NCBI RefSeq assembly: GCF_002094305.1
Contig: NZ_LWTX01000006.1
Coordinates: forward strand, 124,001-188,000
Direction: 5' to 3'
DNA from: Prescottella equi
GTDB taxonomy: Bacteria; Actinomycetota; Actinomycetes; Mycobacteriales; Mycobacteriaceae
Length of the DNA: 64,000 nt
Shown: piece after piece, positions 13,407 to 42,015 of the stretch
Numbering within the stretch: position 1 is the first letter of the stretch
Layout: the number at the start of each line of letters is the position of its first letter
Program-made: the position numbers and the translations under genes
Notes under the pieces: generated by a model
What the model was told of the DNA's origin: nothing
The model's input: the letters and a program-made list of their open reading frames with translations, nothing else
Databases searched by the model: none

Positions 13407-13922
13407 ATGCAGTTGCTCTTCGTGTGTACCGGAAACATCTGCCGGTCGCCCATCGCCGAGAGGCTCGCTTCGGCGTGGTCCGCACGTTCCGACACCATCG
13501 ACCTCACCGTGGCCAGCGCAGGTACCCGCGCGGTCGTCGGATCGCCGATGGAACCCAAAGCCGCGCAGGTTCTTTCCGATCTGGGGGGATCGCCCGACGG
13601 TTTCGTTGCACGGCAGATCAATCCGGCCGTGGCGTCGTCGGCGGATCTGGTCCTCACGATGACGGAAGAGCATCGCGACGCCGTCCTCAAACTGAGCCCG
13701 CGTCACCTCAAACGCACGTTCACGCTGCTGGAGGCGGCGCACATCGCCCGAGCCCTCGGCCGGGGAACGGTAGCCGAGCTGTCGGCAGCGCGGGGGTCCG
13801 TCGGCCGGCCCGAAACGACCGACGTCCCCGATCCGATCGGCCGCAGCGCGATCGTGTTCGGGGACGTCGGTAGCCGGATCGAGTCGGCGCTACTGGACCT
13901 GCTTCCCCGCCTGGACGGGTAG
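13407..13922 (+). CDS. Low-molecular-weight protein tyrosine phosphatase (Wzb-type)
   Basis: A 171-residue enzyme starting MQLLFVCTGNICRSP, with the P-loop CTGNICRS at residues 7-14 (nucleophile Cys7, Arg13) and the general acid Asp in DVPDPIG (about 142). The family dephosphorylates the tyrosine cluster of bacterial BY-kinases, which controls polysaccharide chain length and export. The gene converges on and overlaps the 3' end of the BY-kinase gene by 33 bp, a strong link to that partner. The start is the ATG at 13407, which gives the standard N-terminus. Confidence 0.92.
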   Translation: MQLLFVCTGNICRSPIAERLASAWSARSDTIDLTVASAGTRAVVGSPMEPKAAQVLSDLGGSPDGFVARQINPAVASSADLVLTMTEEHRDAVLKLSPRHLKRTFTLLEAAHIARALGRGTVAELSAARGSVGRPETTDVPDPIGRSAIVFGDVGSRIESALLDLLPRLDG

Positions 13923-15323
13923 CGGAGCCGGACTGACCTGCGTCGCAGGGCTTTCGATCTTCTGGACCGGTGCATCCGAGTCGTAATAGTACGAGTACTC
14001 GTAGGCGCCCTTGCCCTTCGACGGGGTCATCGTGAGGATCGTGCCCAGTACCGTCGCACCCACACTGCGCAGGTTTCCGACCGCTCGGGTCACCTGCTCC
14101 TTCTTCGTCTGCCCGTGCCTGACCACCACGAGTGCACCGTCGACCTTGACCGCGAGGACCGCGGCGTCGGTGACGGGCAGCAGCGGCGACGCATCGATCA
14201 CGACGAAGTCGAAACGGGAGCGCAGATCGGCGATCAGCTTCTCGGCATGCGTGGAGCCGAGCAGCTCGCTCGGGTTCGGCGGCAGAGCACCGGACGCGAG
14301 AACCGAGACGTTCGGGTAGGCGGACGACTGCAGGACGTCGTCCAGGTCCGCCTGACCGGCGAGGACGGTGCTGAGTCCGACCGAGCCGATGAGGTCCAGG
14401 TACTTGGCCACCCGGGGGCGACGCAGGTCGGCATCGACCAGAGCCACCGAGTAGCCAGCCTCTGCGATGGCGAGCGACAGGTTGATGGCGGTGGTCGTCT
14501 TGCCCTCGCCCGGAAGCGAACTGGTGATCGCGAGAACTCGCGGCGGATTGTCGACCTCGAGGAACTGCAGGTTCGTGCGCAGTTCGCGGAACGCTTCCGC
14601 ACTGCCCGAGTAGCCGTCGTGGAAGGCGATGGCCGCCTTCTGCTCACGCTCCTTGTCGAACGGCACCGAGCCCACCAGCCCGACGCCGGCGAGGTCGTCC
14701 AGCACCTCGCGGGACTTGACGGTGTTGTCGAGACGATCGCGGACGATCGCCAGGGCGATACCGGCGAGCAGACCCACGACGAAGCCCAGGGCCACGTTCC
14801 GCTTCGTCTTGGGGCTCACGGCGCTCGAAGGGGTCTTCGCCGCTTCGACGACCGTGGCTCGCGCGACCGGTTCGACGCCGGCTGCCGGCGCTTCGAGACC
14901 CTCGATCTTCACGACCAGCTGCGCGGCGATGGCGTCCGCCAGATCCCGGGCGAGCTCCGGCTTCGCGTCGAGGACGGAGATGTCGAACAGCACGGTGTCC
15001 GGAACTGCGGTGGCCTTCACACGTCCACCGAGGTCCGACGGAGTCAGATCGAGACCGCGCGATTCGATGGCGTCCTGCAGGACATCCTCGCCCGTTGCGA
15101 GCTTGGTGTACGACGCGACGCGCTGCTGCGAGAACAGGTTTCCCTGGTACGCCTCGTTGACCGAGGCGCCTGCCGCCGTCGAGACGAACAGGCGGGAGGA
15201 CGCCTGATACATCGGGGTCGACACGAGTGAGGCCGCCAGCGCCGCGAGTAGACCGACGACTGTCGCCAGCGCGATGATCCTCCACCGTGACTGCACGATG
15301 CGTACGTAGTCCTGTACTTCCAT
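13890..15323 (-). CDS. Wzz-domain/BY-kinase (CpsCD-type) tyrosine kinase for exopolysaccharide
   Basis: A 477-residue fused protein of the actinobacterial type. Wzz part: helix 1 (about 17-37), extracytoplasmic domain, helix 2 (about 175-195). Kinase part: Walker A in SSLPGEGKTTT (Lys about 275), Walker A' VDADLRRP (about 295), Walker B VVIDASPLL (about 374) and a C-terminal tyrosine cluster YEYSYYYD (about 443-450) as autophosphorylation target. Such proteins set polymer length and gate Wzx/Wzy export. The gene lies 62 bp downstream of the giant NRPS gene on the same strand and is probably read from the same transcript. Its last 33 bp overlap the convergent phosphatase gene. A GGACGGGGA-type ribosome-binding site precedes the ATG. 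Confidence 0.92.
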   Translation of the reverse strand: MEVQDYVRIVQSRWRIIALATVVGLLAALAASLVSTPMYQASSRLFVSTAAGASVNEAYQGNLFSQQRVASYTKLATGEDVLQDAIESRGLDLTPSDLGGRVKATAVPDTVLFDISVLDAKPELARDLADAIAAQLVVKIEGLEAPAAGVEPVARATVVEAAKTPSSAVSPKTKRNVALGFVVGLLAGIALAIVRDRLDNTVKSREVLDDLAGVGLVGSVPFDKEREQKAAIAFHDGYSGSAEAFRELRTNLQFLEVDNPPRVLAITSSLPGEGKTTTAINLSLAIAEAGYSVALVDADLRRPRVAKYLDLIGSVGLSTVLAGQADLDDVLQSSAYPNVSVLASGALPPNPSELLGSTHAEKLIADLRSRFDFVVIDASPLLPVTDAAVLAVKVDGALVVVRHGQTKKEQVTRAVGNLRSVGATVLGTILTMTPSKGKGAYEYSYYYDSDAPVQKIESPATQVSPAPLPVQAGKQVQ

Positions 15324-15385: not shown

Positions 15386-18300
15386 TCACGGCTCGCCTCC
15401 CGTCGCGCCCTCCAGAAACTTCCCCACGCGATCGAGGACGGCGGCGGAACTCATGTCCGCGTGCGCGCAGTCCACCAGCTGCTCCGCCACCGTTCCCCTG
15501 ACGAACGGCTCCCACAGCTTGCCCAGTGCAGGACGCCCCTCGGACTCCCGCGTGGCGACGAACAGCGTCACATCGCCGTCGAATACGCGGGGTCGGTGGC
15601 GGTACGCCATCGTCTCGAGGGCCGCGCCGGTGCGCAGCACTCGCTCGGCGGTCCCCGGGTCCAGCCCGTCCGGCAGCTCCGTGACCGGCGCGGTGTCGGG
15701 TGCGCCGGCATCGGGGACGGCGGTGGCCGGCATCGCGTCCAGGATGGTCAGGCTCGCCACGTCCTCTCCGATGTCTTGCAACCGCACCGCCATCTCGTGC
15801 GCGATGTTTCCGCCCAGCGACCATCCCAGCAGGTGGTAGGGGCCCTGCGGCTGGATCGCCCGCACGCGGTCGACGTAGCGCGCCGCGAGCTCGCCGATCC
15901 CGTCGGGCATTCCGTCCTCACCCGTGGCCTGCAAGCCGTACAGCGGCCGACCGCCGGTCGACCCCGCCAGGCCCGCATAGGACCATGCGAGTCCGCTGAG
16001 GGGATGCACGCAGAACAGCGGTGGCTCAGCCGGATTCACAGGATCGTTGAGGGCCACTACGGTCGCGAGCGGATCCGCCTCGACACTGCCGGCGACGACT
16101 CGATCCGCGATCGAGGCGACGGACGGATCAGCGAGAAGTTCGCGCAGCGCCACGTCGTAGCCGTGGTCGTCGCGCAGTCGCGCCGCCAATCGTACGATGC
16201 CCAGGGAGGTTCCGCCGAGTTCGAAGAAGTTCCTGTCCCGGGGAACGGAACCACGGCCCAACACGTCGGCCATCGCAGCAGCCACCGCCCGTTCCACGGG
16301 CCCTTGCGGGGGCGTCGTCTCCTGATCGAGGACGCCCAGGTAGGGATCGGGGAGTGCGGCCCGGTCCACCTTGCCGCCGGGCGTCGTCGGAATCCGCTCC
16401 ACGTTCACCACGACGCTCGGAACGAGATGGCGCGGCAGGAGTCTCGCGAGATCGGCTCGGACCTGCGTCGCGTCGAGGTCGGCGCCGGCCCGTGCCACCA
16501 CGTAGGAGACAAGTGTGCGTTCACCGTTCGACTGCCGGATCGGCACGGTGGCCGACGTACGGATCGACGGGGCGGCGGCGAGGGCCGCGTCGACTTCGGA
16601 CGGTTCCACTCGCACCCCGTTGATCTGTACCTGATCGTCGCTGCGTCCCACGTACTCCACGGAGCCGTCCGCCCGCACCCGGGCGAGGTCGCCGGTCCGG
16701 AAGAGGCGCGCACCCGGGGCGAACGGGTCCGCCACGAACCTTCCCGCCGTTGCCGCGGGCGCACCGTGGTACCCACGAGCCAGTCCGGCACCGCCCACAT
16801 ACAGCTCCCCGACGACACCGGTGGGCACCGGCCGCAGTCGCGGGTCGAGAATCCGAACGGTCTTGCCCGCCATGGGTAGTCCGATGGTGACCGGCCCGCG
16901 GTGAGCGACCGGACCGAGCGTCGCTCCGACAGTGCACTCCGTGGGACCGTACCCGTTGTACAGGCGGTGACCGGCCCACGCGGCGGCCGTCCTCTCCGAG
17001 AGGACCTCGCCCGCCGACACCACCGTCAGCGATCGGCTGAACGCGGCGGGGTCCAGTGTGGCGAGCACAGTCGGTGTCAGATTGACGTGGGTGACGCCCT
17101 CGCGTTCGACGAATCCCTGCAGGTCGGTGCCGGCGTAGATCGACGCGGGCGCGCAGACCAGGGTGGCGCCGTGGGCGTGAGCCGCCAGCAGTTCGAACAC
17201 GCACGCGTCGAACGTCGGCGTGGCGGCCTGGAGCACCACTGCTTCCGGCGTGACGTCGAGTTCCCGTCGCTGCACGTCCACGAGTGTCGAGAGTCCCCCG
17301 TGGGTGACGGCGACACCCTTCGGGACGCCGGTGCTGCCCGACGTGAAGAGCAGGTACGCGAGGCCGTCACCCGACGCGCTCGCGGCGCCGTCGAGCAGAT
17401 TGCGACGACGTTGCTCGGGGTGCGACGGATCGATCGGCACCCAGGCCGCCCCCAGCCGGCTCAGCGCCCACACCTCGACCACCCAGCGCGCTCCGCGGAC
17501 CGCGTCGACGGGCACGATGTCGCCGGCCTGCACTCCGCGAGCCTTCAGTTCTTGCGAGCGATCCTCGGCTGCGGCAGCCAGTTCGGTGTAGGTCCAGCTT
17601 TCGTCGCCACAGCGGAGCGCCTCCCGGTCCGGGTACCGCTGCACGGTCTCGGCGAGAATCTCGGCCAGACCCAGCTCCGGCGGCGCCGTGTCCACGGTGA
17701 GCGGCGGGTGCTCCGGCAACGCCAGGTCGCCTACCGCCGTCGACATATCGGCCGCGGCCTGCTCGAGCAGCCCGACCCAGGCCGCTGCGAGACCGTCGAC
17801 GGTGGCGGCGTCGAACAGATCGGTGGCGTACACGACGCGGACGTCGACGCCTTGCCCGTCGGCGCGCTCGGTCGTGTCCCACACCAGGTCGAACTGCGCG
17901 GGCGGCGCACCCGGTCCGGCGTCGGCGAGGTCGAGGCCCGGTAGGTCGGGCAGTTCGGGTACGGCTGCCGAGTGCGCCAGCAGAACCTGGAACAGTGGAT
18001 GGTGCGCGCGGTTTCGGTGGGGTGCGACCCGCGCGACGACGTCGTCGAACGGGACGTCGGCGTGCGCGAGAGCACCCAGGTCGACGTCGCGGACCCGGCG
18101 GAGGAACTCGCCGAACGATTCGGCGCGGTCGACCACCGTGCGCAGCGCGAGCGTGCCGACGAACATGCCGACCACCGAGTCCAGGCGCGCGTCGGGGCGT
18201 CCGCTGACGACGGTGCCGATCGTGACGTCGTCGCGGCCGCCGTACCGCGCCAGCAGCGCGGCGAGGGCCGCGTGCAGGATCATGAACACCGTGACGCCCT

Positions 18301-21300
18301 GGCGGCGCGCGGAATCGACGAGCGCCGCGTGGAGTTCGGGGCCGACGACGGCGTGCACGGTGCCGCCGACGTGGGTGGGAACCGCGGGACGCGGACGGTC
18401 GAAGGGGAGCGCGAGCGGGCCGTCGGGTGCGCCGGTCAGGGCGCGCGCCCAGTACGCCAACTGCCGGCCGCCCACACTGTCCGGGTCGTCGAGGTCGCCG
18501 AGCAGTCGCACCTGCCAGTGCGCGAAATCGCGGTACCGCAACGGCAGGGACTCCCACTGTGGTGCGACTCCGCCTGCTCTCGCCGCGTACGCTCGCGCTC
18601 CGTCACCGAGCAGCGGGGTCACGGAGGCTCCGTCCACGGCGATGTGGTGCGTCACGACGACGAGAATCCACTCGGCCGACTCCGCCAGCAGCAGTGCCGC
18701 GCGCAGTGGCGGCCTCGACGTCAGGTCGAACGGCCGGGATGCCATCCGTGCGATCCATCGGTCGAGCTCGTTGCGGGACAAGGGCTCGTGGACGATCGCG
18801 ACCTCGACGTCCCCGCTGCTCGCGACCGCCTGACGCGTCTCGTCCGGGTAGTACGTCCGCAGCGCTTCGTGCCGATCCACCACGTCGCGGACGGCCGCGG
18901 CGAGCGCGCGCGGGTCGAGGGATTCGCCGAACCGGACGACGATCGGCATGACGTAGTCGGCACTGTCGGGTTCGGCGCGATGGAGCAGCCACAACCGGCG
19001 CTGTGCCGGAGCGATCGGCACCGGCTCCGTGTCGGTCCGGACGAGTTCGGAACGGGCGGAGGCGGCCCCGGTGTCGATCGTGCGGGCCAGCGCGGCGAGC
19101 GTGGGCGCCTCGAGCACTGCACGCGGCGCGACGTCCCGGCCGAGCGACTGCGCCAGGCGTCCGGCGACCTCGACGGCAGCGAGCGAATGCCCGCCGACTG
19201 CGAAGAACCCGGCGTCGACGTCGACACAGTGCCCGAGGACGTCGGAGACTACCGCGGCGACGACCGACTCCGTGCCGGAGAGCGGGCGATCGCTGGACGT
19301 GTCCGCGAGTTCGCGTGCGAGTTCGGTCAGCGACCGGAAGTCGGTCTTGCCGTTGCTCGTCGTCGGGAGCCGATCCAGTACGTGCAGACGTGACGGCACC
19401 GACGTCGGCGGCAACGTCCGAGTGACCGCGCGCAGCACTTCTTCGGGATCGATCCGGTCGCCACAGACGAAGGCGACGAGGGCGCCGTCCACCGCCGTCA
19501 CCGCCGCCCGCCGGACCGCGCTGTCCTGCAACAGTGCCGACTCGACCATCGCCGGCTCCACGCGTGCGCCGCGAATCTTGAGTTGGCGGTCGACGCGGCC
19601 GAGGAAGCGAAGCCGTCCGTCGAAGCCCACCCGAACCCGGTCGCCCGTTCGGTACATCCGTCCGGTTCCGTGCGTCGAGGCCACGAACCGCGCCGCCGTC
19701 TCCCCCGGGGCGCCCAGGTAGCCGCGAGCCAGACCGTCGCCGGTGAGGTACATCTCGCCGACGCCTCCGAGCGGAACCGGATGCAGAGCGGTGTCGAGCA
19801 CCAGCACCCCGGTGCCGGGGATGGGCTCCCCCAGAAGGATCTCGTCACCGATATCGGCGAGCAGGGCGACGACGGTCGACTCCGTCGGTCCGTACGCGTC
19901 GAGCATCCGGCGGCCGGTGCGCCAGGCCCGTACCGTCTCCGGCGCCAGGCTCTCACCGCCGCTGGCCACGACCTGCAAGTGGTCGAGGCCGTCGGCGTCG
20001 AGCGTCGCGAGTACCGCGGGGGTGGAAAGGAAGTGAGTGACCTGCTGTCGGCCCAGAAGATCGTGCAGCGGCGCTCCCGCGAACACGTCCGGCGGCGCGA
20101 CGACCAGTGTCGCACCCGACGTGTGGGCGAGCAGCATCTCGAGCAGCGCGGCGTCGAAGGCCGGATCGTAGCCGTGCAGCACACGGTCGCCGGGGCCGAC
20201 GCGGTAACGCCGGCGAGCCTCGGCGGCGAGCGCCGCCAGACCCCGGTGTGTCACGGCGACCTGCTTGGGGGTGCCGGTGGAGCCGGACGTCGTGATGACG
20301 TAGGCGAGCGTGTCGACGGCCGACGCAGCATCCACGAGTGACTTGCTGCCCATGCTGGAACGGTGGTCGTGTGCGCCGAACGCCGCCCCCGTCTTCGCCA
20401 CCGCCCACAGTTGCACCACACGCTCGATCGACCGTGTCGGTGGAAGCGCGACGACGTCCTCGGGACCGATCCCCTCCTCGTCGGACATTCGACGAGCCGA
20501 CGCGTCGGATCGCTCGTCGAGTTCGCGGTACGTGAGCGTGTTCTCACCGTCGGTCACCGCGTGCCGATCCGGAAACGCCGCCGCGGTGGCCCGCAGCATC
20601 GAGGCCAGGGTCGTCGGCTCGCAGTCGGCCTCGGACACCCGCGCCGGCGCGGTGAGCAACGGCAGATGCCCCACGGTGGTACCGGGAGCTGCGGCGGCAG
20701 CACCGACGACCGCGGTGAACTGCCGCGCCAGCAGCTCCGCGTCCGGGCGGGCGAAACGCGAGACGTCGTGCAGCAGTCGGCCCGTCAGACTACCGGATTC
20801 GTTGTGCCACAGCGTGAAGCGGATGTCGAAGTCGGCGGTGGCCGGTTCGGTTTCGTGTGCCTCGATGCTCAGATCACCCACGTGCAGCGCGGGGATCGTG
20901 AAGTCCTGGAGAGCGAGCGCCACCTGGGGTGTCGACAGTCCGGTCGACCGGAGCACGTCCTCGATCGGGGCCGCGGCGCGGTCCAGCGCCGCGACGTCGA
21001 AGTCGCGCACCTGTCCCAGCAGCCCGGCGAACGGCATCCCCGGTTCCACCCGGGCGCGCAAGACGACGGTGTCCACGAACGGCCCGACGACCGGAATCAG
21101 TTGCGGGTACCGGCGACCCGACACGACTGCGGCGATCCCCACGTCCGTCTGCCCCGAGAGGCGGGCCACGGTGGCCGCGAGTGCCGCGTGCAGGACCATG
21201 AACTCGGTCGCTCCACGCGAGGCTGCCAGGTGTGCCAGGTGTGCAGTGACGTCGGCGTCGATCTCGAAGTCGATCGAGCCGACCGGGCCCGGTTCCGTCC

Positions 21301-24300
21301 CGGGGGTGGTCACCGAGGGAAGCAGAGCCGGATCGAAGTCCGCGAGAGCATGCGTCCAGAATTCGGTGTCCCGGCCACGGGACGCCGTGTCGCGTTCCCA
21401 CAGCGCGTAGTCGACATACTGCACCGGCAACGGCGCCCAACGCGGCGCGTCGCCGACGAGCCGTGCCTCGTACGCCGTCACGAGGTCGGTCACCAGGATC
21501 GCGACCGACGCACCGTCCGCGGCAAGGTGATCGAGTTCGACCTCGAGCGTGTGGGTCCGGGGGCCATCGGCTCGGAGGGCCACACGCAACGGGACCGCGT
21601 CGTCGTGCGAGTCGGTACGTCCCGCGGTCCCGATCGACGCGTACGGGCCGGCGGCGTCGTGGGAGTAGAAGGTGCGCAGAATTTCGTGACGTTCCACGAC
21701 GTCCGTCAATGCGGCGTGCAAGGCGTCCGGAACCAGCGGACCGCGCAGTTCCACCCGCGCCCCCAGCCGATACCGTTCGACGCCGCCGGTCCGACGCTGG
21801 GTCCACATCCGTTGCTGGGCCCGGCTGAGCGGCAGACGCTCCGGCCGGTTGCCCGCGACGGGTCCGCCGTCGGCTGCCGCGAACCGGCCGCCCTCGATCG
21901 CGGCGGCGAGGCCCGCGACGGTCGGCTCGTCGAACAGCAGACGCAGCGGGACCTCGCGTCCGAGCCGTGCCCGCAGCTGGGACACGACGGCCGTCGCGAG
22001 CAGGGAATCGCCTCCGACGACGAAGAAGTCGTCCAGACGGTCCACGTCGGTCCCGAGCGCCACGGAGTACGCCTCCGCGACCAGGGCCTCGATGGGATTC
22101 GTCGGCGCGCCGCTTCGCTCCCGCACCGGCTTGGGGAGCCGACCGGCGTCGACCTTCCCGTTCGCGGTCAGCGGGATCGAGTCCGTCGTGAGGATGGCGG
22201 TGGGGATCATCGGCGCGGGCAACCGGTCGACGAGCGCCGCACGCAATCGTGCCGGATCGCAACTCTCCGGCACGACATACGAGTACAGGGCATGCCCGTC
22301 ACCGTGCTCGCGCGGGACGGTGACGGCGCTCCGCACGCCGGGCAGGCTCCGGAGTACGGCGTCGACCTCGGCGGGTTCGACACGCACTCCGCGAATCTTG
22401 ACCTGGTCGTCGCTCCGTCCGCGGAAGTCGAGCATCGCACCGGCCGGTGTCTCGATCCACCGCACGAGGTCTCCGGTCCGGTACAGGCGGCGGCCACCCG
22501 GCGCCGCAACGAACCGCTCCGCTGTCCGAGCACCGTCGCCGTCGTATCCGGCGGCGAGGCGGTCACCGGCCAGGTACAGCTCGCCGGTCACCCCCGGCGG
22601 CACAGGCTGCAGGCGTCGATCGAGCACGACGGCATCGATGCCGCGGGCGGGCCGTCCGATCAGCGGTCGGTCGGACGGGGCCAGTGGACCCGCCCACGTC
22701 GCGAAGGCCGTCGCCTCGGCCGGGCCGTACCCGATGAAGAGCCTGCGTCCCTCACCCCACCGTGCCGACACATCGTCGGTGACCCGCTCGCCGCCGAGCA
22801 TCAGCGTCGCAAGGTTCGGGAACGATCCGGCGGCGACGCTCGACGCGACGGACGGCGTCAGGCAGGCGTGGGTGACGCGTTCGGCGGCAATCAACTCGGT
22901 GAGTTCCGGCCCGCCGTAGGCCGATCCGGGAGCCACCACGAGTCGGGCGCCCGACATACCCGCCAGCAGCATCTCGAGCAGCGCCATGTCGAACCCGGGT
23001 CCTGCGACGTGCAGGACCCTCGAATCGGCGTCCGCAGCGAAGATCTCGGCGAGGTCGTCACCGAACGCGCCGAGGCCGCGCGCCGTGAGGACGACCGCTT
23101 TGGGGTGGCCGGTCGTGCCCGAGGTGAACACCACGTAGGCCGCGTCGTCCGGGTGAATTGCCGGCTCTCCCAGGACACCGGTGCCGGACGCAGCGACGTC
23201 GACCCATTCGACGCGCGACGGCAGGCTCACGACGCCCTCGGCGGTCGTCACACCTGTGCGTACACCGCACGCCTCGAGCATCAGCTGGATCCGAGCGGCC
23301 GGATGCTCCGGGTCGATCATCACCGGAGCTGCACCGGTGCGAGCGATCGCCCACACCGCCGTCACCGAGTCGAGCGAGCGCGGCACCGCACAGGCCACCC
23401 GGACGCCGGGTCCCGCGCCTCGGGCGACCAGCTCGCGGGCGAGTGACTCCGCGCGCACGACGAGTTGGCGATAGGTCACGGTGCGGTCGCCGGCAGCCAC
23501 CGCCACGCGGTCGGGGTGTTCGGCGGCACCGGCCGCCAGGACCTGCCACAGCCCGGCGACGGATCCGTCGGCGCCGGACGCCGGCACCAGACCGCGGCGC
23601 TCCGTTGCGGTCAGTAGGCCCACGTCACCGATCGGCAGGCCGGGATCCGCGGTGACATGGTCGAGGAAGAGGATCAGGCGCGCGGCGAAAGCCTCGATCG
23701 TGGCAGCTTCGTACAGGTCGCTGCGGTAGGCGAATTCGAAGTCGAGACCGTCGGGGTTCTCGGTCACGGTGACGTGCAGGTCGAACTGCGTGCTCGCCGA
23801 CTCGATCGGAGCCGCGGAGACCTCGAGACCCGGGAGGGTGAATCGCAGGCTCCCCGGCCGGCGGACGGCGAGCGCCACCTGGAAGATCGGGTGGCGCGCC
23901 GAATACCGTTCCGGTGCGACGCGTTCGACGATGCGCTCGAACGGGGTGTCGACCCGCGCGAAGGCCTCGATGTCCCGCTCCCGCACGTGCCCTAGCAGGT
24001 CCGCGAACGTCTGCCCGGCCGCGACGTCGGTGCGCAGAGGCAGCGTCGAGGCGAACATGCCCACGAGCGAATCCAGTCGCGGATCGCCGCGACCGGCGAC
24101 GGCCGTGCCGATCACTATGTCGTCGGTGTCGTTGTGCCGGGCCAGGACTGCGGCCAGTGCGGCGTGGATCGTCATGAACGTGGTCGAGCGATGTCGGCGA
24201 GCCGTCGCGGCGACCCGCTCGGCGGGTTCACCGTGAAGCGCGACGTGAACCGCGCCGACCTCGGGGTTCACCGTCTCCGATCGGACCCGGTCCGGCGGCA

Positions 24301-27300
24301 GCGACGATTCGGTGGGGGCGCCGTCGAGGATCTCCACCCAGTCGTCGAGGTTCGCGTCGACGCGTGTGTTCTGCCACCGCGCGTGGTCGAGATAGTCGAG
24401 CGGTAGCGGTGACCACTGCGGGCACCGCCCCTCGACGCGCGCGCGGTAGGCCTCCGCGAGGTCGGTCGACAACGGATCGAGGGACCATCCGTCGGCCACG
24501 ATGTGATGGACGACTATCGCCAGGACGTGCTCGGTGTCCGCAGTGCGATACAGCCGAAATCGCAGGGGCGCAGATGCTTCGAGGTCGAACGGCGTCCGGG
24601 CGAGAGAGCGCACGAAATCGTCCAGGCCGCCGCGCGGGACCGCAACCGGTGTCAGATCGACGGCGGGGCCGTCGCCCACGCGCTGCAGCGGGCCGTCGGG
24701 TCCCGTCGTGTACGTGGTCCGCAGGACTCGGTGCCGGCGCAGGACGTCGCGCACCGCTTCCTCCAGCGCGCCGATCACCAGGTCACCCGAGAAGCGCAGC
24801 GTGAAGGCCAGGTTGTACACGTCGGACGCGGGATCGAGGAGATGCTGGAACCACAGCCGGCGCTGGGCCGGAGAGAGCGGACCGGCGTCGAGCGGCGTTG
24901 TGCTCGCGCGCAGCTCGGAGCTGCCCACAGGCCGTGCCACCCGGGTCTCGATCGTCCTCGCCAGGTCCGCGGCGGTGGCGGCGTCGAAGACGTCGCGGAC
25001 GCCGATCTCGATACCGGTCGTCGATGTCAGCCGGCCGGCGACCTGAGTTGCGAGCAGGGAGTTGCCACCGACGTCGAAGAAGTCGTCGTCGCGGCCGAAA
25101 TCGGGGGCGCCGAGCAGGTCACTCCAGACGTCGAGCACCACCGCCTCGAGCGGGCTGCGCGCGCCGCCGGTCACGACGGACGGGACCGTGGCATCGACCG
25201 GGTCCGGCAGGGCCGCGGCGTCGACCTTGCCGTTCGCATTGAGCGGCAGCGTCTCCATCGTCACGACGGTCGCGGGGACCATGTAGTCGGGCAGCACGCG
25301 CCGGAGGGCCTGGATGATCGCCCGGTGCGCGAGGCTGTGCTCCGTACGGGCCGCGCCGACGACGTAGGCCACCAACCGCCCGCCGCGCACTGCCACTGCG
25401 GCATCGACGACGCCGGTGGTACCTCGTAGTGCCCGCACGATCTCGCCGGGTTCGATCCGGTGCCCACGCACCTGCAACTGGTCGTCCGACCGGCCGCGGT
25501 ACTCGTAGGTTCCGTCGTTGCGCAGACGCGCGAGATCGCCGGTCCGGTAACGGATTCTTCCATCCGGGGCGGCCACGAAACGCCCCGCGGTGAGTCCCGG
25601 TCGTCCACGGTAACCACGGGCCACCTGCGGGCCGCCGACGTACATCTCGCCGACGACTCCGGGCGGCACGGGGCGCAGCGATCGGTCCAGCAGGTCGACT
25701 TGCAGCCCCGGCAGCGGCACACCGATGACGCTGCGGTCGGCGGGTTCGGCCGGTGCGATGTCGGTCCACGTCGCGTGCACCGTGGTCTCGGTGATGCCGA
25801 ACATGTTGACTGCGCGAACCGTCGGGTGTTTGTCGAGCCACGGCGACACCCTGCGGACGTCGAGGGCCTCGCCTCCGAAGATCAGCAGTCGGAGAGCGAG
25901 ATCGTCGGCCTCCCCCGCCATGTCGACCAGTTGGGCGAACGCGGTCGGCGTCTGATTGAGGACCGATACCCGCTCCCGCACCAGTAGTTCACGTAGTTCC
26001 CGGGGGCTCCTCGCCACGAAATGATCGACCACCACGATGCTGCCACCCGTGCCGAGCGGACCCCAGATCTCCCACACCGAGAAGTCGAACGCCGGCGAGT
26101 GGAACATCGTCCAGACGTCCGACGGACCGAACCCGAAGCCTGCAAACGTGTTCGCCAGCAACGCCAGGACGTTCGCATGGGACACCGTCACGCCCTTGGG
26201 CCTGCCCGTAGACCCACTCGTGTAGATCACGTAGGCCGCCTGATCGTCCCGGACCGCAACGTCGAGCGGTCCGCATCGATCAAGATCCGGCCGCCCCGGT
26301 GGGGATGCGATCTCGAGCGAAGGACCGTCGCCGCCGAAGCCGCCGTCGTGCAGGATCAGTGCTGCCCCGACCTGGTCGATCAGCATGTCGAGGCGATCGC
26401 GAGGCTGGGTGCTGTCGAGCGGCAGGTAGGCGGCACCCGCACGAACGACCGCGATCATCGCGACGATCAAGTCCACCGAACGTGGCAGAACCAACGCCAC
26501 CACATCCTCGGTGGCTACCCCGGCCTCCGCGAGTCTGCCCGCGAGCAACCGTGACCGGGCATCGAGTTCGGCGTAGGTGATGCGTTCGTCGCCCGCCACC
26601 ACCGCCACCGCATCGGGATGTTCGGCTGCACGCTGGACGAACAACTCGCCCAGCGACGTCACCCCGGCACACACCCCACTGCGAGATTCGGTCACAGCCT
26701 CGGGTCGCCCACCGAGCACGCCACCGCGCGCGACCGGATCGATCGCGTCGACCACGACGGTCGGATCGTCGGTGACCGTCTCGAGCACCCGCACGAGCCA
26801 AGCCGCCCACCGGGCCACGGTCTCGTGATCGAACAGGTCCCGAGAGTACGTCAGCACGCCGTCGATCCCGGCCGCCTCACCCATACGGAGGTCTCGCTCG
26901 CGAAGGGTGACCTCGAGATCGAAACGTGTTTGTCCGCTGTGGATTTCATGGACACGAATGTCGAGTCCCGGCACCGGGAGCTCGGCGGGCACGAAGTTCT
27001 CGTACGCGAGCATCACCTGGAACAGAGGGTGGTGCGCACCCGAGGTTCGCGGTGCCACGCGTGCGACGACCTGGTCGAACGGCGTCTCCGCATGAGCGAG
27101 CGCGTCGAGGTCGTCGCGGCGGATCCCGCCGAGCAGATCGACGAAGGAACGAGTCTGATCGACGGTGGCGCGCAGCACGACCGTGCCGACCAGCATTCCC
27201 ACCAGGTCGTGCAGGCCGGGTCCGCTGCGTCCCGACACCGGGGTTCCGACGCTGACGTCGTCGCTCCCCGAGAGTCGGGCGAGCAGCACCACGAGCGCTG

Positions 27301-30300
27301 CGTGCACCACCATGAAGGGGGTGGCGTCGTACTCCAACGCCACCTTCTCCAGCGCGGCATGCAGTTCCGCCGGAATCGTGAAGGTCACCGTTCCGGCGGC
27401 GGCAGAACCGTACTCGCGGCTTCTCGATCGATCGGACGGCAGTTCGAGGACCTGCGGCGCCGTCTCGAGACGCTCGGTCCAGTACGCAAGATCCTCGTGC
27501 GCCCGGCTTCCCGGCTCCGACGAATCGCCGAGCAACTCCCGCTGCCACCGCGCGTAGTCGGTGTAGCGCATCCGGACAGGGCTCCAGCCCGGTTCGGTGC
27601 CGCGCCGTCGAGCCTCGAACGCCTCCGTCAGATCGCGGTACAGCGGCACCACCGACAGCCCGTCCAGCACCGCGTGGTGCGCGACGACGGCCAGAGTGTG
27701 GGACGTGTTCCCCGTGCGGTACAGGGCCAGGCGCACCGGCGCGGTCGAGGTGATGTCGATCGGACGGGCTGCCAACTCCTGCAACCGGTCCGCGCAGCCG
27801 TTCGGCGCCTCGATGACCTCGGGTACCGATGCTGCGGACTCGACCACCTGGACCGGACGTCCGTCGATCTCCCGGAAGACGGTGCGGAGCGCCTCGTGGC
27901 GTTCGAGCACGTCCGACACCGCGGTCCGCAGGACGCCGGTGTCGAGTTCTCCCTCGATCTCGAGTGCGAACGCGATGTTGTCCGCTGCGGACGTGTGCCG
28001 GCGCGCCAGCACCCACATCCGTTGCTGCGCCGGCGACAGCGGGGCCGGCTCGTCACTGTCACTCGGTTGCCACGGAACCGGTGAACCGTCGATCCCGTCG
28101 AGTATCCCGGCGAGGCCCGCGACGGTCGGGTTCTCGAACACGTCCCGCACGTCGATGCGCACGCCCGTCTCCGAGCCGATCCGGGACACGAGTTGCGTCG
28201 CGAGCAGCGAATTGCCGCCGTACACGAAGAAGTCGGAGTCACGTCCGAGGGCGTCGCCACCGAGCACCTCGGACATGAGTCGGGCCACCGTGCGCTGGCC
28301 TGCCGTGTGAAACTCCCTGGCGTCGGGACGGGGAGCGGCCGGAGCCGGCAGCGCGGCACGGTCGATCTTGCCCGCGACGGTCAACGGAACAGTGTCCAGC
28401 ACGGTCACCACACCGGGCACCATGTGCCGCGGTAGCCGCGCGGCAGCAAACCCCCGGAGACGTTCGACATCGAGGTGCCCCCGTCCGTGGACGAAAGCCG
28501 CGACCGTGCCCGCGTGTTCGACCGCGACCGCGGTGTCGACATCCGGGTGGGCGGTGAGCACGGCCTCCACCTCGCCGAGTTCCACGCGGAAGCCGCGGAT
28601 CTGGATCTGACGGTCGGATCGGCCGACGTACTCGTACTGGCCGTCGACCCGTCGGCGAACCAGATCACCTGTGCGGTACATGCGCCCGGGACCGAGCACC
28701 GAGGCGACGAATCGTTCGGCGGTGAGGCCGGGTCGGCCCAGGTATCCACGGGCCAGGCCGGGGCCTGCGAGGTACAACTCGCCGACCGCACCGACGCCGA
28801 CCGGACGCAACTCGGCGTCGAGCACGGCCACGGTCGACCCGTCGACGGGCACACCGATGGGCGGATTCGACAGCCCGTCGAGCGGGCGGCTGATCGTTGC
28901 GACGATGGACGACTCGGTAGGCCCGTACAGATTCAGCAGCGTCCGTCCGGGCGCCCATCGGGCGGCGGTGTCCCACGCCCACGCCTCTCCGCCGAGGCCC
29001 AGGACGCGCAGGTCGTCGAGGTCGTCGGGATCGATCTGCGCGGGCACCGCGGGGGTCGAGAACCAGTGGGTGACTCGTTGAGTCCGAACGATGTCGGCGA
29101 TCTCGTCGGGTCCGTACACGCCGTCCGGCACCACGACCAGGGTGGCGCCGGATCCGAGTACGAGCAGGTACTCGAGAATCGATGCATCGAACGCAGGAGA
29201 CGCGGCGTGCAGCACGCGGGATCGTTCGGTGATCGCGAACGCGCGCCGCAGGGTTGTCGTGAGCGGCCCGAGACCGCGGTGCGTGACGACCACACCCTTG
29301 GGTGTGCCGGACGAGCCCGAGGTGTAGATCGCATACGCCGCGGAGTCCGGGTGCGGAGTCGGAAAGGGCTCATGCTCCGCATGATTCGCGTCCACCAGCG
29401 CATCGGGATCGATCCGGTGGACACCGTCGGGCAGGTCCGCGTCCGCTCGGGCGATCACGAACCGCGCGCCACTGTCGGCGAGGATTGTCGCGATGCGGTG
29501 CGCTGGCTGGTGCGGATCGATCGGCACGAAGGCGGCTCCCGCACGCGCGACCGCGACAACAGCGGTGACGGCCTCGACGGAACGGGGCAGCAGGATACCG
29601 ACGAACTCCCCGCTCGCGACTCCCCGCGCTGACAAATGCCGGGCCAGCGCCTCCGCCGCGGGAGCGATGTTGCGTGCAGGCCCTTCCGCGTCCACGACGC
29701 GAGTGGCTCCGTTCGCGATCTCGGACAGCGTGACCGGCGTTCGAGGCGCGACGGGCCCGACGTCGGGAGTGCCGCCCGTCACCAGGTCCGCGATGCGCCG
29801 ATGCGGGTCCACGGCCACGCGGTCGAGGATGGTCCCGAGCAAGCTCGCCCAGCCCTGCACGGTTCGCCGGTCCAGGACGGACGAGTCGTACACGAACCCG
29901 ATCTCGAGGCCGGCTGCCGTCTCGCGCACCGCGATCTCGAGATCCGACCGGGCGTCCGTTCCGGGCACGGCCCGCCCTCGCACTTCCAGGCCCGGCCACA
30001 CGAGGGCCGGATCGGCGAAGCTCTCGTACGCGAGCATCGCCTGCAGCCGTACTCCCCCGCATCGCTCCTGGACGACGTCGAACGGCGTGGTGGCGTGGAC
30101 GAAGGCGTCGATGTCGGACGCCCGGACTGCGTCGACGAGGTCCGGGAAGGTCGCATCGCCGTGCACGTGCGCGCGCAGGGCCACGGTGCCCACGAACATT
30201 CCGACCAACTCGTCGAGCAGCGGATCGTTGCGGCCGGACTCCGCAGTCCCCACCAGGGTGTCCGGCGTGCCGGTGATCGCCGACAGCAGCACCGCGACCG

Positions 30301-33300
30301 CCGAATGCAACACCATGAAGGGCGTCGCGTCGATGCCCCTGGCCACGGCGCCGAGCGCCGTCCACACCTCACTGTCGAGGCTGGCCGTGACCCGCTCCGC
30401 GCGGCCGCGGACTGCCGACCGGGATCGATCCAGCGGCACACCGGGAACGGCTGGAGCCCCCTCGAGCACGCCTTCCCAGAACGCGAGATCGCTGTCACGG
30501 ATCCCCGAGTCCAGCAGTTCGTGCTGCCAGCGCGCGTAGTCCGCGTAATCCACCGGCAGAGGGGCCCACGGGGGCGTCCCGCCTGCGCGTCGCGCGGTGT
30601 AGGCCGCGGTGAGATCGGCGATCAGCGGCGCGAACGAGAGTCCGTCGAGAGCGATGTGATGCGCCACGACGACGAGTTCGTGACACCGGTCGCCGATTCG
30701 GTGCAGCGCGAACCGGATCGGCACGTCGGTCGCGAGGTCGAACGGTTCGGACACGAAGTCGTCGATCAACCGCTGGGATTCGTCACGATCGCGTACGTCC
30801 CGCGTACCGAGCACAGCGGCCCGGTCGACTTCCACGAGACGCGGCCGTGGTTCCCCGTCGGCGTTCTCGGTCAGCACCGTGCGCAACGGTGCGTGCCGCC
30901 GGAGGACGTCACCCAGAGCGTCCCGCAGCGCCTCCTCCGACAGCTCGCCCACGAGTTCGACGACGAACGGCACGTGGTAGGCAGTGCTCGAAGGATCGAG
31001 CTTGTGCTGCAACCACAATCGTCGCTGCGCCGGGGCGAGCGGTGCAGAGCGGTCATCGGCCGCAACGAGTGCCGGGCGCTCGGCCGCGCCCGCGACGACG
31101 GCAGCCAGACCCGCGGCGGTCCGACGGGTGAAGACGTCACGAACGGACACGCTGCGTCCGGTGACCGCGGAGACCCGCGCGGCGAGACGGGTGGCGCTCA
31201 GGGAGTTGCCGCCGTGGTCGAAGAAGTCCGTCGACGCGTTCACCTCGATACCGAGGATGCGCTGCATCTCGTCGGCGACGAGTTCCTCCACCACACCGTG
31301 CACCGATCGACCGTGGGCGCCGTCCGGTGTGGGTGCTCGGTCGACGAGCACGGCACGGTCGACCTTCCCACTCGCGGTGAGCGGCAGCGAGTCGAGCAAC
31401 ACCACTCGGGACGGAACGGCATGGGCGGGCAAGCGTTCCGCGAGCCACTCGCGCAGTCGATCCGGCCGCAGTCCGTCACCGCACGCGAAGGTCACCAGCC
31501 GTTCGTCGATGGCTACGGTCGTCGCGGCGCGGACACCCCGGTGGGTGACGAGGAGCGCATCGACCTCGCCTGGTTCGACGCGGATCCCGCGCAACTGGAT
31601 CTGATGGTCGACCCGTCCGACGATGTCGAGGGTCCCATTCGCGCGCCACCGGGCCAGGTCGCCGGTGCGGTACATCCGGCCGCCACCGAAGGGCGAGGCC
31701 ACGAAGCGTCCCGCGGTCGATCCGGCGTCGCGGGCGTACCCGCGGGCGAGCGACGGGCCCAGCACGTAGACCTCGCCGACGACGCCCGGCGGGCAGGCGC
31801 GTAGCCGCGGATCGAGGACGACGATCGACGAACCGTCCACCGGCCGGCCCACCGGAACCGACGTCGTCCCGGCCAGCATCGCGTCGTCGATGCGGCCGCT
31901 CACGGCCGCGAGAATCGTGGTCTCGGTCGGTCCGTACGCGTTGACCATCGCCCGGTTCTCGGACCACCGCCGAGCCACGGGCACCGGCAGCACTTCGCCG
32001 CCGGAATCCAGCATGCGCAGTGTCGGCACGGTGTCCGACGGCGTCGCCGCCAGCACGGCCGGTGACGACACGACGTGCGTCACGCCCTCCGCCGCAATCA
32101 GCTGCGCCAGCGGATCGCCCGCGACGACGTCGCCGTCGGCGATCACGAGGGTGGCACCGGCGTCGGCGGCGGTCAGGATCTCCTGGATCGAGGCGTCGAA
32201 CGACAGCGACGCGACGTGCAGCACGCGTGAGTCGGGAGTCGCCGCATACGTGGTCCGGAGCGTCGAGAGCAGACCCGCGATACCGCGGTGTGACACCACC
32301 ACGGCCTTGGGCTGTCCCGTCGACCCGGACGTGTGCACGATCCATGCGGGGTTCTCCGCACGGAGCGGTCGCAGCCGCTCGGCATCGGTGATCGGGGCGG
32401 TCGAGAAGCCCGGTGCGTCCGGGTCCACGAGCAGGACGCTTCCGGGCAGTTCCACCCCGCGGCCGATCGCGAAACCGACGACATCCAGGTGTTGCGCCAA
32501 CCGCAGCGGCGGAAGTTCCGGGTCGACCGGTACGTAGGCGGCTCCGGTCTTGGCGATGGCCCACAAGGCCACGACGGAATCGATCGACCGAGGCAGCAAC
32601 ACCGCGACCGCTTCCTCGGGTCCACACCCCAAGGAGATGAGACGCCGCGCGAGCGCCGACGAGCGAGCGTCGAGTTCGGCGTACGTGATCTCCACGCCGG
32701 CCGCGCGCACCGCAACACCACCGGATCCCGCGTGGCGGATCAGAACGTTCGGAAGCAACTCCTCCCGGCCCGGTACCGGCCGCCCCGCCGCAGGGGTCAG
32801 TCCCGCCGTCTCGCCGGGGAGGCCGAACGGCACATCGGACACGAGTTGAGCGCCGGACGCCGCGAACTCGGTGAGGAAGGCGAGCAGTCGGCTGTGATGC
32901 CGGTGCAGGGACTCGGTCGAGTAGCGGGACGGGTTCGCTTCGAAATCCAGGCGCGTGACCCTATCCGCGCCACCCGGGTAGACCGTCAGCGACAGGTCCT
33001 CGACCGGCCCGGTCGACAGGACGAACAGCTCTCCGGTGACCGGGCCGAACTCGACCGTCTGCGGGAACTGCAGGATGTTCACGACGGGCCCGAACACTCC
33101 GCCGAGCCCCGTGCGGCCCTCGCCGTCGGGCAGTTCGCGGAGCATGTCCTCGTAGCGGAACCGTTGGTGCCGCAGCGCACCCGTCATCTCGATCTGCACA
33201 CGTCGCACGAGGTCTGCGACCGTGTCCGACGGATCCACCCGCACTCTCAGCGGTACGACGTTCGACACCGAACCCGCCGATCGACGCAGCAATGCCGTCG

Positions 33301-34111
33301 TGCGCGCGGACACCGGCAAGCTCAACACGATGTCGCCCACGCCCAGTACCCGTGACAGATATGCGGCGAAGCCGGCGACGATCACAGGCACGTCGGGCAT
33401 CGCCGAACCGCTGCCACTTCCGGTGAGAGTGCCGGCGGGCAGTTCGCCGGGCGACCGCAGCGCGGGCGTCGTCACCGGGCCGGGACGATCTGCGATCGAG
33501 ACGGACGGCGGCAGGTCGCGCAGGCGCTCCCGCCAGTACTCGCGATCCGAGGCCTCCCTGGTGCTCCCGTTGTAGGCGACGACGCTGCGCCACACCTCTT
33601 CGACAGGTGCCGTCGAAGTCGGCGGCGGCGCGACGCCCTCGACCAGGGCGCCGTAGACCTCGGAGATGCGGTCGGTGAGAACCTGCGCCGCCGAACCGTC
33701 CATGACGATGTGGTGGGCGAAGTAGTGCAGGTAGTGGAGGTCGTCGCGCAGCCGGATCAGCGTCATTTCCGCGAGGCGGTCCGAGAACGGGTCGATCGGT
33801 CGGGCCGTCCGCTCGGTCATCCAGGTGAGCGCGGCAGCATGCGGATCATGGGCCCCCGACAGGTCGAGGAAGTGCGGACGATCGTCGATGTCCGGCACCG
33901 GGGTCTGCAGCACCTCGTCGTCGACCTCGACGAGAACCACGGTCCCCGAACCGATGTCGCGAGCTGCCTGATCACAGGCCTCGATGAACATTTCACTGTC
34001 GATTCCGCCGCGAACCTCCAGGTACTCCGCGACGGTCATGGCGATATTGGGCAACAGCTGCTGCGCGACCAGAAGCGCGTTCTGTGCCGGCGCAAGCGGG
34101 AACGGACGCAC
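15386..34111 (-). CDS. Six-module nonribosomal peptide synthetase (C-A-T)x6-TE
   Basis: A 6241-residue single chain. C-domain HHxxxDG motifs lie near residues 131, 1150, 2144, 3201, 4193 and 5154. A-domain TSGSTG-type motifs lie near 594, 1594, 2630, 3660, 4604 and 5588. T-domain GGxSL serines lie near 968, 1963, 3017, 4032, 4972 and 5965. The terminal thioesterase has GWSLGG near 6095 and His in CAHAD. No epimerisation, methylation or oxidation domain is seen, and spacing leaves no room for one. The first C domain opens the protein, as in starter-C acylating systems. Specificity residues read by eye: A1 DAQVDGAILK, A2 DALFGGLIVK, A3 DFWNIGMVHK (the known threonine code), A4 DMLCMGGAFK, A5 DALLAGAVVK, A6 DAFNVAGVGK; all but A3 unassigned. 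C5 has DHLAADG instead of HH, and A5 and A6 are about 35 residues short between motifs A2 and A3. GTG at 34111 was chosen for its AGAGGGGG site. No MbtH-like gene, phosphopantetheinyl transferase or peptide exporter is in the window. Confidence 0.93.
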
Positions 34112-34236
34112 GCCGACCCCCTCTGAATTCAACAGGCATCCCGACAACCCCGTCCGCGAACTGCCTTGCCGCCCCGACGAAGCCCATCCGACCCAACCTG
34201 CGGGAATCGGACAGAACCAACTTACTGTGCGCGAGA

Positions 34237-34257
34237 AGCGTTCACCACTTGAACGCT
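34237..34257. promoter_or_regulatory. Inverted repeat in the divergent NRPS/DUF4012 promoter region
   Basis: AGCGTTCA (34237-34244) and TGAACGCT (34250-34257) form an exact 8-bp inverted repeat with a 5-bp spacer. It lies in the 206-bp gap between the divergent NRPS (start 34111) and DUF4012 (start 34318) genes. A dimeric repressor or activator could act on both genes here; the regulator is unknown and no candidate gene is adjacent. Confidence 0.5.
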
Positions 34258-34317
34258 CGATCAGTCCGGATACGGGATAGCCTGCCAAACACACCACGAG
34301 CGAAGGGGGCTCACCGA

Positions 34318-36165
34318 GTGGAGCAGACCAAGTCCGAGGAGTCGTCCGTCGAAACCGCGACGGAAGCACCGTCACGACGGCGCACGAATCGGCGCAGAAC
34401 CGTTCAACCTGCAGCGACACAAAGGAAGCGCCGACGACGAATCGTCATCGGGACCGCATCCGCGGCGGCAGTCGCGGTCGCCTGGGGCGGCTACGTCGCA
34501 TACGAGGCCACTCAGATCAAGTTGAATCTTGAAGAGGCTGCCGAGTTCGCGACGCAGACGAAAGATGCTCTACTGGCGGGTAACTCGGAGGAGGCGGTCC
34601 GTTCCGCCGACGACGCCGCTCGCTACGCCGGGCGAGCCAAGGACGCCACCGATTCGGTGAGCTGGCGGATTGCGGCAGCGATCCCCGGTATCGGCGGTCC
34701 GTTCGACACCACCCGACAGATTTCCGACGTCGTCCAGGGCCTCGCGTCGGACGTGCTCAGGCCCGCCGTCGAAGCCGGCTCGGCCCTGTCTCCCGACCAA
34801 CTACTGCTGGACGGCGCGCGCATCGACCTCACCGGGCTACGGGACGCAGCCCCAGTGCTTGCCGAGACGGCAGCCGCGGCCGACGAACTGGCCGTGCGAG
34901 CATCGGAGATCGACAGCACGTTCGTGAGCCAGATCGACGGCCCACGACAAGAACTCGTGGGGCAGACCACGGACCTGTCGTCACTGCTCGGCAACGTATC
35001 GACCGCGGCGGAGATCGCGCCCGCGATGCTCGGCGCCGATGGGCCCCGCAGCTACTTCATCGGATTCCAGACCAATGCCGAGGCTCGCGGAACCGGCGGG
35101 CTCCTCGGAGGGTTCGGCGAACTGCACGCGGTAGACGGCGCTGTCCGCGTCGACGAACTCGCGAGCAACCGCGAACTGTCGCTCGCCGGGCGGCAGGGCA
35201 TCGACCTCGGTCCCGACTTCGAGCGTCAGTACGGTCAGAGCCGCCCCACCACCGACTTCCGCAACAGCAATGCCAGTTCACATTTCCCGTACGCCGCGCA
35301 GATCTGGCGATCACTGTGGGCCCAGGAGTCGGGAACGCAGGTCGACGGCGTCATCGCCACCGACCCCGTCGCGCTCAGCTACGTACTGAAAGTCGTCGGG
35401 CCGGTCGTCATGCCAGACGGCGAGAAGGTGACCGCCGACAACGTGGTGGAGTTGACGGAGTCGACGGCCTACACCCGGTTCGGCACCGACAACAACGCGC
35501 GAAAGCAGTACTTGCAGAACATTGCCGGCAAGGTTGTCGAACGCATGACCGGCAAGATCTCCCAGCCGCAAGCCTTGCTGGAAGCTCTCGGACGGGCCGC
35601 GAGTGAAGGCCGCCTCGCGGTGTGGAGTTCGCAGCCCGACGAGCAGGACGTGCTGGCCGATACGCCACTGGGGCACATCGTTCCGGACGACGACGCACCG
35701 TACGCCGGTGTCGTGGTCAACAACCTCGGCGGCAACAAGCTCGACTACTACCTGCAGCGCGAAATCGACTACACGGCAGACAGTTGCTCCGGAGACACCC
35801 GAGCAACCACCGTGAAGGTCCGGCTGACCAACACACTGCCGCCGGGCGACTACACGAAGTACGTCGCCGGGATGTTCGACAATCCGATGGGCGCACCGGC
35901 CGGAACCAACCTGACCAACCTGTCGCTCGTCGCCACCCAGGGCGCCAAGCTCGGCAAGGTGACCGTGGACGGCAAGCCGGCCTTCGCATTCACCGGGGCA
36001 GAGCGCGGCCACCCCGTCTTCGATCTCCAGTTCCCGATTCCGCAGGGCAAGACCGTCGAGGTGGTCTACCAGCTCACCGAGCCGGCGTCGGCGAAGGCGC
36101 CGGTCGTGCCGGTGCAGCCGCTTGTCGACGCGCCGGCGGTCAGCGTCCGAGTTCCACCCTGCTGA
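34318..36165 (+). CDS. DUF4012 domain protein, membrane-anchored, polysaccharide-locus associated
   Basis: A 615-residue protein. A very basic N-terminus (about 1-40) leads into one membrane helix (about 42-62), then a helical region with [18 protein letters not shown]-type heptads (about 70-130). The large DUF4012 domain (about 200-600) contains [25 protein letters not shown], its hallmark. DUF4012 proteins are frequent in exopolysaccharide loci of actinobacteria and chloroflexi and are thought to work outside the membrane, but their activity is unknown. GTG at 34318 is preceded by AGGGGG at good distance. The longer frame upstream crosses the divergent promoter. A strong terminator follows at 36203. 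Confidence 0.88.
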
Positions 36166-38341: not shown

Positions 38342-38469
38342 TACACTCCTCGAGAATGTTCAGCTAAATTCCACAAACAGGGCGGCGTATCTATTCGGTG
38401 TCCCGCGCCCGGTTGGGGCTCCTGAGCCTTCAAGACTGGCCCCGACCTGGCCCCCCCAGCGCCGCGCTG

Positions 38470-39270: not shown

Positions 39271-39273
39271 CGT

Positions 39274-40620: not shown

Positions 40621-40656
40621 AGTGTTAACGCTCACGACATCCACCACCCCATCGAG

Positions 40657-41978: not shown

Positions 41979-42015
41979 CGTCGCCTCCTTGAAGGTCCAG
42001 AATATCGACGCGCAC

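Follow-up and report, generated by a model that had tools for sequence, protein, structure and literature searches.

A six-module nonribosomal peptide synthetase co-inherited with the Wzz/BY-kinase of a rhodococcal polysaccharide locus

Introduction

Why should a locus for an envelope polysaccharide carry the gene of a giant peptide synthetase? The products of nonribosomal peptide synthetases (NRPSs) are usually interpreted as diffusible metabolites, and the NRPS considered here lies inside a Wzx/Wzy-type polysaccharide locus of Prescottella equi, within a stretch of 64,000 nucleotides at contig positions 124,001-188,000 (hereafter the window, to which all other coordinates refer). An original prediction, made from the letters of this DNA, described a synthetase of about 6240 residues with the architecture (C-A-T)x6-TE, situated 62 bp before the Wzz/BY-kinase, and proposed that its peptide could belong to, or be co-regulated with, the surface polymer. 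In this study, we mainly focus on the anatomy of the gene, its inheritance across rhodococcal genomes and the partners with which it is most consistently found.

The synthetase and the surrounding locus

The NRPS gene occupies positions 15386-34111 on the minus strand. The open frame extends from 15386 to 34420 on that strand without internal stops, and a GTG start at 34111 yields a protein of 6241 aa; the predicted size, architecture and position of the synthetase are confirmed. Pfam and custom HMMs recover six C, six A and six T domains and one TE, and the ordered C-A-T modules with a terminal TE are those of a type I modular NRPS. The catalytic second His of the HHxxxDG motif is kept in all six C domains, including the fifth, where the motif reads DHLAADG and the first His is replaced; GGxS is present in all six T domains, and the last T domain is followed by a thioesterase with the motif GWSLG (together 15386-16321, minus strand). 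By sequence, the closest solved relatives of the first C domain (32789-34111, minus strand) are CDA synthetase I, 7c1k, EntF and ObiF1, entries that we take to be starter-type C domains, whereas the third C domain matches other C domains in the same comparison. These neighbours support the earlier description of the first C domain as starter-like, and they predict a putative acyl transfer and an N-acyl peptide as the product. The absence of an MbtH-like protein, noted in the original prediction, was borne out for the whole contig; the two MbtH genes of the genome, on contigs C2 and C4, could work in trans. Neither an acyl ligase dedicated to the NRPS nor an exporter was recognised, and no MmpL/Gap exporter was found among the ORFs scanned, a subset of the total.

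The 5.2-Mb genome contains 60 condensation-domain matches, seven of them in this gene, and several further NRPS genes. The original prediction had called NRPS genes rare in polysaccharide loci, and it is indeed the location that is notable here; NRPS genes as such are not rare in this genome. The G+C content is about 0.60-0.64 in the glycan genes and 0.68-0.73 across the NRPS.

The end of the NRPS gene is separated by 62 bp from the start of the Wzz/BY-kinase gene (13890-15323, minus strand; PF02706), which encodes a chain-length determinant with tyrosine autokinase and scores 174.8 bits against TIGR01007 (cut-off 108). Convergent with the kinase is a Wzb-like low-molecular-weight phosphotyrosine phosphatase (13407-13922, plus strand), which is also a member of the polysaccharide locus, and adjoining the phosphatase is an FGGY_C/MreB-like protein (12136-13311, minus strand) with relatives at the equivalent position in many loci. 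On its other side, the NRPS shares a divergent intergenic region (34112-34317) with a gene for a DUF4012 protein (34318-36165, plus strand), a neighbour that was absent from the earlier account. The glycan genes (36344-48651) lie beyond DUF4012 as seen from the NRPS, all on the minus strand: an Acyltransferase_3-SGNH O-acyltransferase (36344-38341), a polysaccharide pyruvyl transferase (38470-39270), a Wzy-like polymerase candidate (39274-40647; PF04932 at 30.2 bits, just under the cut-off of 31.7), a glycosyltransferase (40657-41829), a Wzx flippase (42016-43509; PF13440), a second glycosyltransferase (43484-44671), a glycosyltransferase 28/Alg14-like protein (44644-45603), a UDP-glucose/GDP-mannose dehydrogenase (45668-46996) and a priming sugar-phosphate transferase (Bac_transf, 47092-48651). 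The parts of a Wzx/Wzy locus are thus present, namely Wzx, Wzy (below its cut-off), the Wzz/BY-kinase, the phosphatase and the priming transferase.

Co-inheritance with the chain-length kinase

A family-wide search of 301 genomes returned a kinase match in 141, and the DNA upstream of the best kinase copy was examined in 95 of these, comprising all 82 genomes of four rhodococcal genus groups and 13 of the 59 from other genera. The four groups are Prescottella (the R. equi group, g1), g23 (including R. globerulus), g27 (including R. gordoniae and R. coprophilus) and g6 (including Rhodococcoides kyotonense). An NRPS ends at most 1.3 kb upstream of the kinase in 58 of the 82 rhodococcal genomes, with one gene in between in nine of the 58; by group, this arrangement occurs in 12/12 Prescottella, 18/24 g23, 15/17 g27 and 13/29 g6 genomes, the last denominator including G234, which offers just 1.1 kb of sequence, too little for a verdict. 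The other 24 genomes, with G234 counted among them, have the kinase without an upstream NRPS, as do all 13 examined genomes of other genera (g29, g20, g2, g28 and g17). In view of this tally, an accidental or local event in a single genome was rejected.

Within Prescottella, 12 of 14 genomes possess an ortholog of the kinase, and all 12 carry an NRPS terminal module directly upstream of it, the module being a more distant one in G002 and G004. DUF4012 is found in the same 12 genomes and missing from the same two, which yield weaker TE matches only. Among 24 named loci (L059-L082), the NRPS stands by the kinase in 20, including those of R. jostii, R. koreensis, R. opacus, R. wratislaviensis, R. 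globerulus, R. gordoniae, R. rhodnii and Rhodococcoides kyotonense; the loci without it are those of R. coprophilus, R. sp. 105337 (no more than a TE-like remnant) and one Mycobacterium, together with the ambiguous locus L081. When the last T domain and TE were searched against the 301 genomes, the best 34 matches (E up to 4.4e-60) all lay beside the kinase, as judged from hit lists compared by eye. Furthermore, the distance matrices of kinase and NRPS correlate at r 0.73, a value reached in none of 2000 permutations, across 28 loci (36 usable of 51 tried, minus identical kinases); the kinase and the phosphatase correlate more closely, at 0.94.

Two further arrangements were considered at these loci. 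Nine of the 13 NRPS-bearing g6 (Rhodococcoides) loci have a CMAS-family gene between the synthetase and the kinase, an arrangement suggestive of a peptide tailored with lipid; it is given no weight as support, because four NRPS-less g29 loci also have CMAS. Two g27 genomes without an upstream NRPS (G062 and G118) carry another NRPS, of five modules, on the downstream side of the kinase at a distance of about 7 kb; it was rejected as a moved copy since its adenylation codes do not match.

The NRPS lies away from the kinase in four genomes that appear to be of the R. erythropolis type (G092, G244, G158 and G128), whose kinase has no adjacent NRPS. Their synthetase belongs to the main clade of linked TEs, carries the penultimate code described below, and lies about 1.1 Mb (G092) or 2.2 Mb (G244) from the kinase or otherwise on another contig. 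That the NRPS occurs alone elsewhere in relatives, named in the original prediction as evidence against a tie to the polymer, is therefore true in part; in both genomes whose upstream flanks were read (G092 and G244), DUF4012 still divergently adjoins the relocated gene. In the TE tree, linked TEs fall into two separate lineages, so that either the terminal module may have been exchanged at least once with the penultimate code kept, or the linkage may have arisen more than once. We infer that a rhodococcal ancestor acquired the NRPS at a site between DUF4012 and wzz and that some lines later lost or moved it.

Conserved adenylation codes and variable sugar genes

The number of modules differs among the linked synthetases: three in two fully read g6 loci, five or six in Prescottella, six in four g27 loci, and seven or eight in two g23 loci. 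Adenylation codes, read via alignment to module 3, are constant at particular positions. The module-1 code DAQ[VI]DGA occurs in 16 of the 18 NRPSs compared (the exceptions being two from g23) and additionally in two g6 NRPSs. Of 37 kinase-linked NRPSs, 36 carry the penultimate code DALL[AG]GA and one is unreadable; this survey took in 38 of the 58 linked loci and met one frame that was too short. The same code is absent from 45 A domains of other NRPSs (from the source genome and two stretches of G237; four unreadable). Position 3, with the code DFWNIGMVHK, is the only one given a residue name; we take it to be a Thr code. None of six code strings searched for occurs in the open-access papers covered.

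Most other Prescottella loci have diverged counterparts of the window's glycosyltransferases, Wzx and Wzy, or none that were detected. The question whether NRPS and polysaccharide genes travel together has a divided answer: they do for the kinase, in the 58 of 82 genomes above and with overlapping stop and start codons in one clade, and they do not for the sugar genes, which vary, or in the four R. erythropolis-type genomes.

The DUF4012 protein

A divergent DUF4012 gene stands next to the NRPS in 22 of 23 loci (18/18 kinase-linked loci read over 40 kb, 2/2 g6 loci and 2/2 relocated loci), the exception being R. rhodnii G060, with no DUF4012 within 13 kb of the NRPS. The two genes form the tightest pair in the system, and DUF4012 and the kinase are better supported as partners of the NRPS than the glycosyltransferases. 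In six of six g29 genomes, DUF4012 directly precedes the kinase on the same strand and the NRPS is lacking; in the available part of an EPS gene table of Bifidobacterium longum, DUF4012 likewise stands next to wzz (PMC5412050). DUF4012 thus accompanies wzz in NRPS-free loci as well and is not dependent on the peptide.

The protein has an N-terminal hydrophobic helix and is probably membrane-anchored. Its core domain (residues ~225-450) is predicted from a structural model to adopt the fold of LCP glycopolymer transferases, with a putative transferase activity. An hhalign comparison of DUF4012 with LCP gave a score of 25.1 (P 0.0076, probability 5%), which was reached by 0/49 column shuffles and 1/50 block shuffles. 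The PF03816 (LCP) profile has no match in the protein, which matches DUF4012 and, weakly, other families only; no LCP protein appeared among the best 50 Foldseek matches of the whole model or when PDB sequences were searched with the profile of DUF4012.

Junctions, transcription units and an operator-like palindrome

In 14 of the 15 NRPS-bearing g27 loci, the stop codon of the NRPS overlaps the ATG of the kinase (TGATG or TAATG); the fifteenth, G230, has the same junction with the frame interrupted 121 nt earlier. The spacer measures 51-77 bp in the 12 Prescottella loci, and an alignment of nine of them reveals a conserved block that might be a separate promoter for the kinase alone. Sigma-70 promoter scans of this spacer and of the divergent NRPS-DUF4012 region found none, and the divergent region contains one terminator-like site, near chance level. 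NRPS and kinase are probably carried on one transcript. The glycan genes form a transcription unit of their own: DUF4012 runs in the opposite direction from the NRPS, about 206 bp away, which excludes a common transcript for the synthetase and the glycan genes. A tie to the surface polymer, as originally suggested, finds support on the kinase side, in co-inheritance and the stop/start overlap, and not on that of the sugar genes.

The divergent region also contains an operator-like palindrome, GCGTTCA-N5-TGAACGC (34238-34256), whose 14-bp core, GTTCAAGTGGTGAA, occurs once in the genome with one mismatch allowed. A palindrome score of at least 11/14 was obtained in 10/12 Prescottella, 4/4 g27 and 2/2 relocated loci, in 0/2 g23 and 0/2 g6 loci, and in 15 of 440 control windows, some of which possibly overlap the site.

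Discussion

What, then, is the synthetase doing in this locus? Most of the related genomes examined keep a like NRPS beside a capsule-control gene with one fixed code, which argues that its product probably belongs at the cell surface and is not an unrelated antibiotic. We lean, with somewhat better than even confidence, towards the view that the NRPS is inherited as part of the rhodococcal envelope-polysaccharide system and that its product is an N-acyl peptide that works there. The starter C domain would load an acyl chain, and the assembly line would add three to eight residues (six in the present NRPS), of which the penultimate is fixed, the first is fixed in most lineages and the others drift, before the thioesterase would release the N-acyl peptide. 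Synthesis would be coupled to the Wzz/BY-kinase, probably via one transcript, and to DUF4012 through the common divergent promoter region. The lipopeptide would then probably act at the cell surface alongside the capsule, where it would anchor, terminate or organise the polymer, while the sugar repeat differs between species. Against this reading stand the position of the NRPS away from the kinase in four genomes, the 24 of 82 genomes with no NRPS upstream of the kinase, the intervening gene in nine g6 loci, the separate glycan operon and the block in the Prescottella spacer that might be a kinase promoter. The same holds for the failure to recognise a dedicated acyl ligase or exporter, the NRPS-free loci with DUF4012 beside wzz, the two lineages of linked TEs and the lower correlation of kinase with NRPS than with phosphatase. 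A covalent joining of peptide and glycan is possible. Its most specific form appears unlikely: the DUF4012 protein with its predicted LCP fold would transfer the Wzy polymer from the lipid-pyrophosphate carrier onto the N-acyl peptide, the invariant penultimate residue would serve for attachment or recognition, and the NRPS product would thereby anchor or cap the capsule; we know of no chemistry in which a polymer is transferred onto an NRPS-made peptide.

The main rival is a freely secreted lipopeptide, be it a biosurfactant, an antibiotic or a signal, with a gene that shares no more than its regulation with the capsule; this rival has a real though minor chance of being correct. The domain architecture matches an ordinary lipopeptide synthetase encoded by a single gene, rhodococci harbour many NRPSs and putative lipopeptide clusters, and the four R. 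erythropolis-type genomes have the gene outside the polysaccharide locus; however, a penultimate code that is invariant across three- to eight-module versions, the stop/start overlap with the kinase and the nearly constant DUF4012 pairing speak against it. We regard it as improbable that the genes are passive neighbours, brought together by a chance insertion between DUF4012 and wzz and kept by linkage with no functional tie. The g29 arrangement indicates that the NRPS was probably inserted, and 24 of 82 genomes lack the gene or have it elsewhere, but its retention in the other 58, the fixed code, the overlap and the persistence of DUF4012 beside the relocated NRPS all speak for a functional tie. 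A siderophore synthetase would fit the putative FecB-like binding lipoprotein that lies beyond DUF4012 in both relocated loci read; it is nevertheless a very improbable identity, as the NRPS has no DMENLGLINK-like code (presumably of the hydroxamate type, and present at another NRPS of the genome), the contig has no MbtH and no uptake gene was seen among the ORFs scanned.

An envelope peptide of this kind would matter in several respects. In four genera, most of the genomes examined have the NRPS beside the chain-length kinase, and one code stays invariant amid changing sugar genes, which suggests a testable new role for NRPS products in envelope assembly. The arrangement may also hint at how capsules stay attached to a mycolic-acid envelope and at the function of DUF4012, which stands beside wzz in other actinobacteria too.

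Comparison with known systems

No report of a linkage between an NRPS and a capsule kinase was found in the open-access literature, although one may exist elsewhere; the linkage is unreported in the available parts of PMC5550956, PMC2947987, PMC11433410, PMC12024397, PMC12298843 and PMC5412050. As far as its available text goes, a 2025 survey of Rhodococcus EPS connected no EPS genes with biosynthetic gene clusters in its strains (PMC12298843). The humimycin-type NRPSs of Rhodococcus (IupU) are likewise starter-C lipopeptide synthetases; in the passages available, they are accompanied by MbtH, amidohydrolase and N-acyltransferase genes, a heptapeptide is predicted, and capsule genes are unmentioned (PMC5550956, PMC12024397). 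The module count of six and a contig lacking MbtH led us to reject identity with the humimycin synthetase. The present gene may be identical to NRPS-2 of Ceniceros et al., which the passages available describe without a polysaccharide linkage (PMC5550956). The EPS loci of B. longum are alike in their DUF4012-wzz neighbourhood, with no NRPS in the available part of the gene table (PMC5412050). The DUF4012 core resembles LCP (LytR-CpsA-Psr) transferases in its predicted fold and differs from them in the absent PF03816 match.

The GPL loci of mycobacteria combine an NRPS-made N-acyl peptide with glycosyltransferases, and their product belongs to the envelope. The present locus is similar in uniting glycosyltransferases with an NRPS that is predicted to make an N-acyl peptide. 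Its contig lacks MbtH, and the ORFs scanned include no MmpL. In GPL, sugars are attached directly to a short lipopeptide, whereas the present locus combines a single NRPS gene with a Wzx/Wzy polymer system and a BY-kinase.

Architecture of the NRPS and its variants at kinase loci

The fifth condensation domain of the NRPS (~20.6-21.9 kb) carries DHxxxDG in place of HHxxxDG, a substitution found in 13 of the 13 six-module NRPSs compared, with the catalytic second His retained. Within Prescottella, a five-module version is encoded at the kinase loci of P. defluvii Ca11 and R. hoagii AcN21-7 (L102, L108), and the TE domains of these synthetases cluster with those of Rhodococcoides-type genomes; this grouping suggests exchange of the locus, or of modules, across genera.

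In nine Rhodococcoides-type loci (L163, L166, L171, L173, L174, L175, L177, L178, and L179), the interval between NRPS and kinase holds a mycolic-acid cyclopropane synthase-family gene, its PF02353 assignment having been tested on one member. Genes of this family also lie near the kinase in four loci without an NRPS, from another kinase-bearing genus (g29).

Apparent loss and breakage

In the last 1.5 kb of L150 (R. sp. 105337), the interval from the DUF4012 gene to the kinase retains no more than a TE-like stretch, such as deletion of the NRPS would leave behind. Two genomes of the group that includes R. gordoniae and R. coprophilus (G062, G118; L311, L312) lack the upstream NRPS and carry a different, five-module NRPS ~7 kb downstream of the kinase. 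The NRPS frame lies in several pieces in G003 (L104, L105); these breaks are probably sequencing errors, because some adjacent genes are broken too and the assembly is 79% complete.

The sugar gene island

G+C content is ~0.60 over most of the glycan genes (36344-48651), versus ~0.66-0.73 in the flanks. This low-G+C stretch looks foreign and forms a sugar island that can probably be exchanged, with the NRPS (15386-34111, minus strand) outside it. The acyltransferase_3-SGNH protein encoded at 36344-38341 shows resemblance to the mycobacterial SucT acyltransferase model, with a score of 241 bits that is far under the model's cut-off of 1275.
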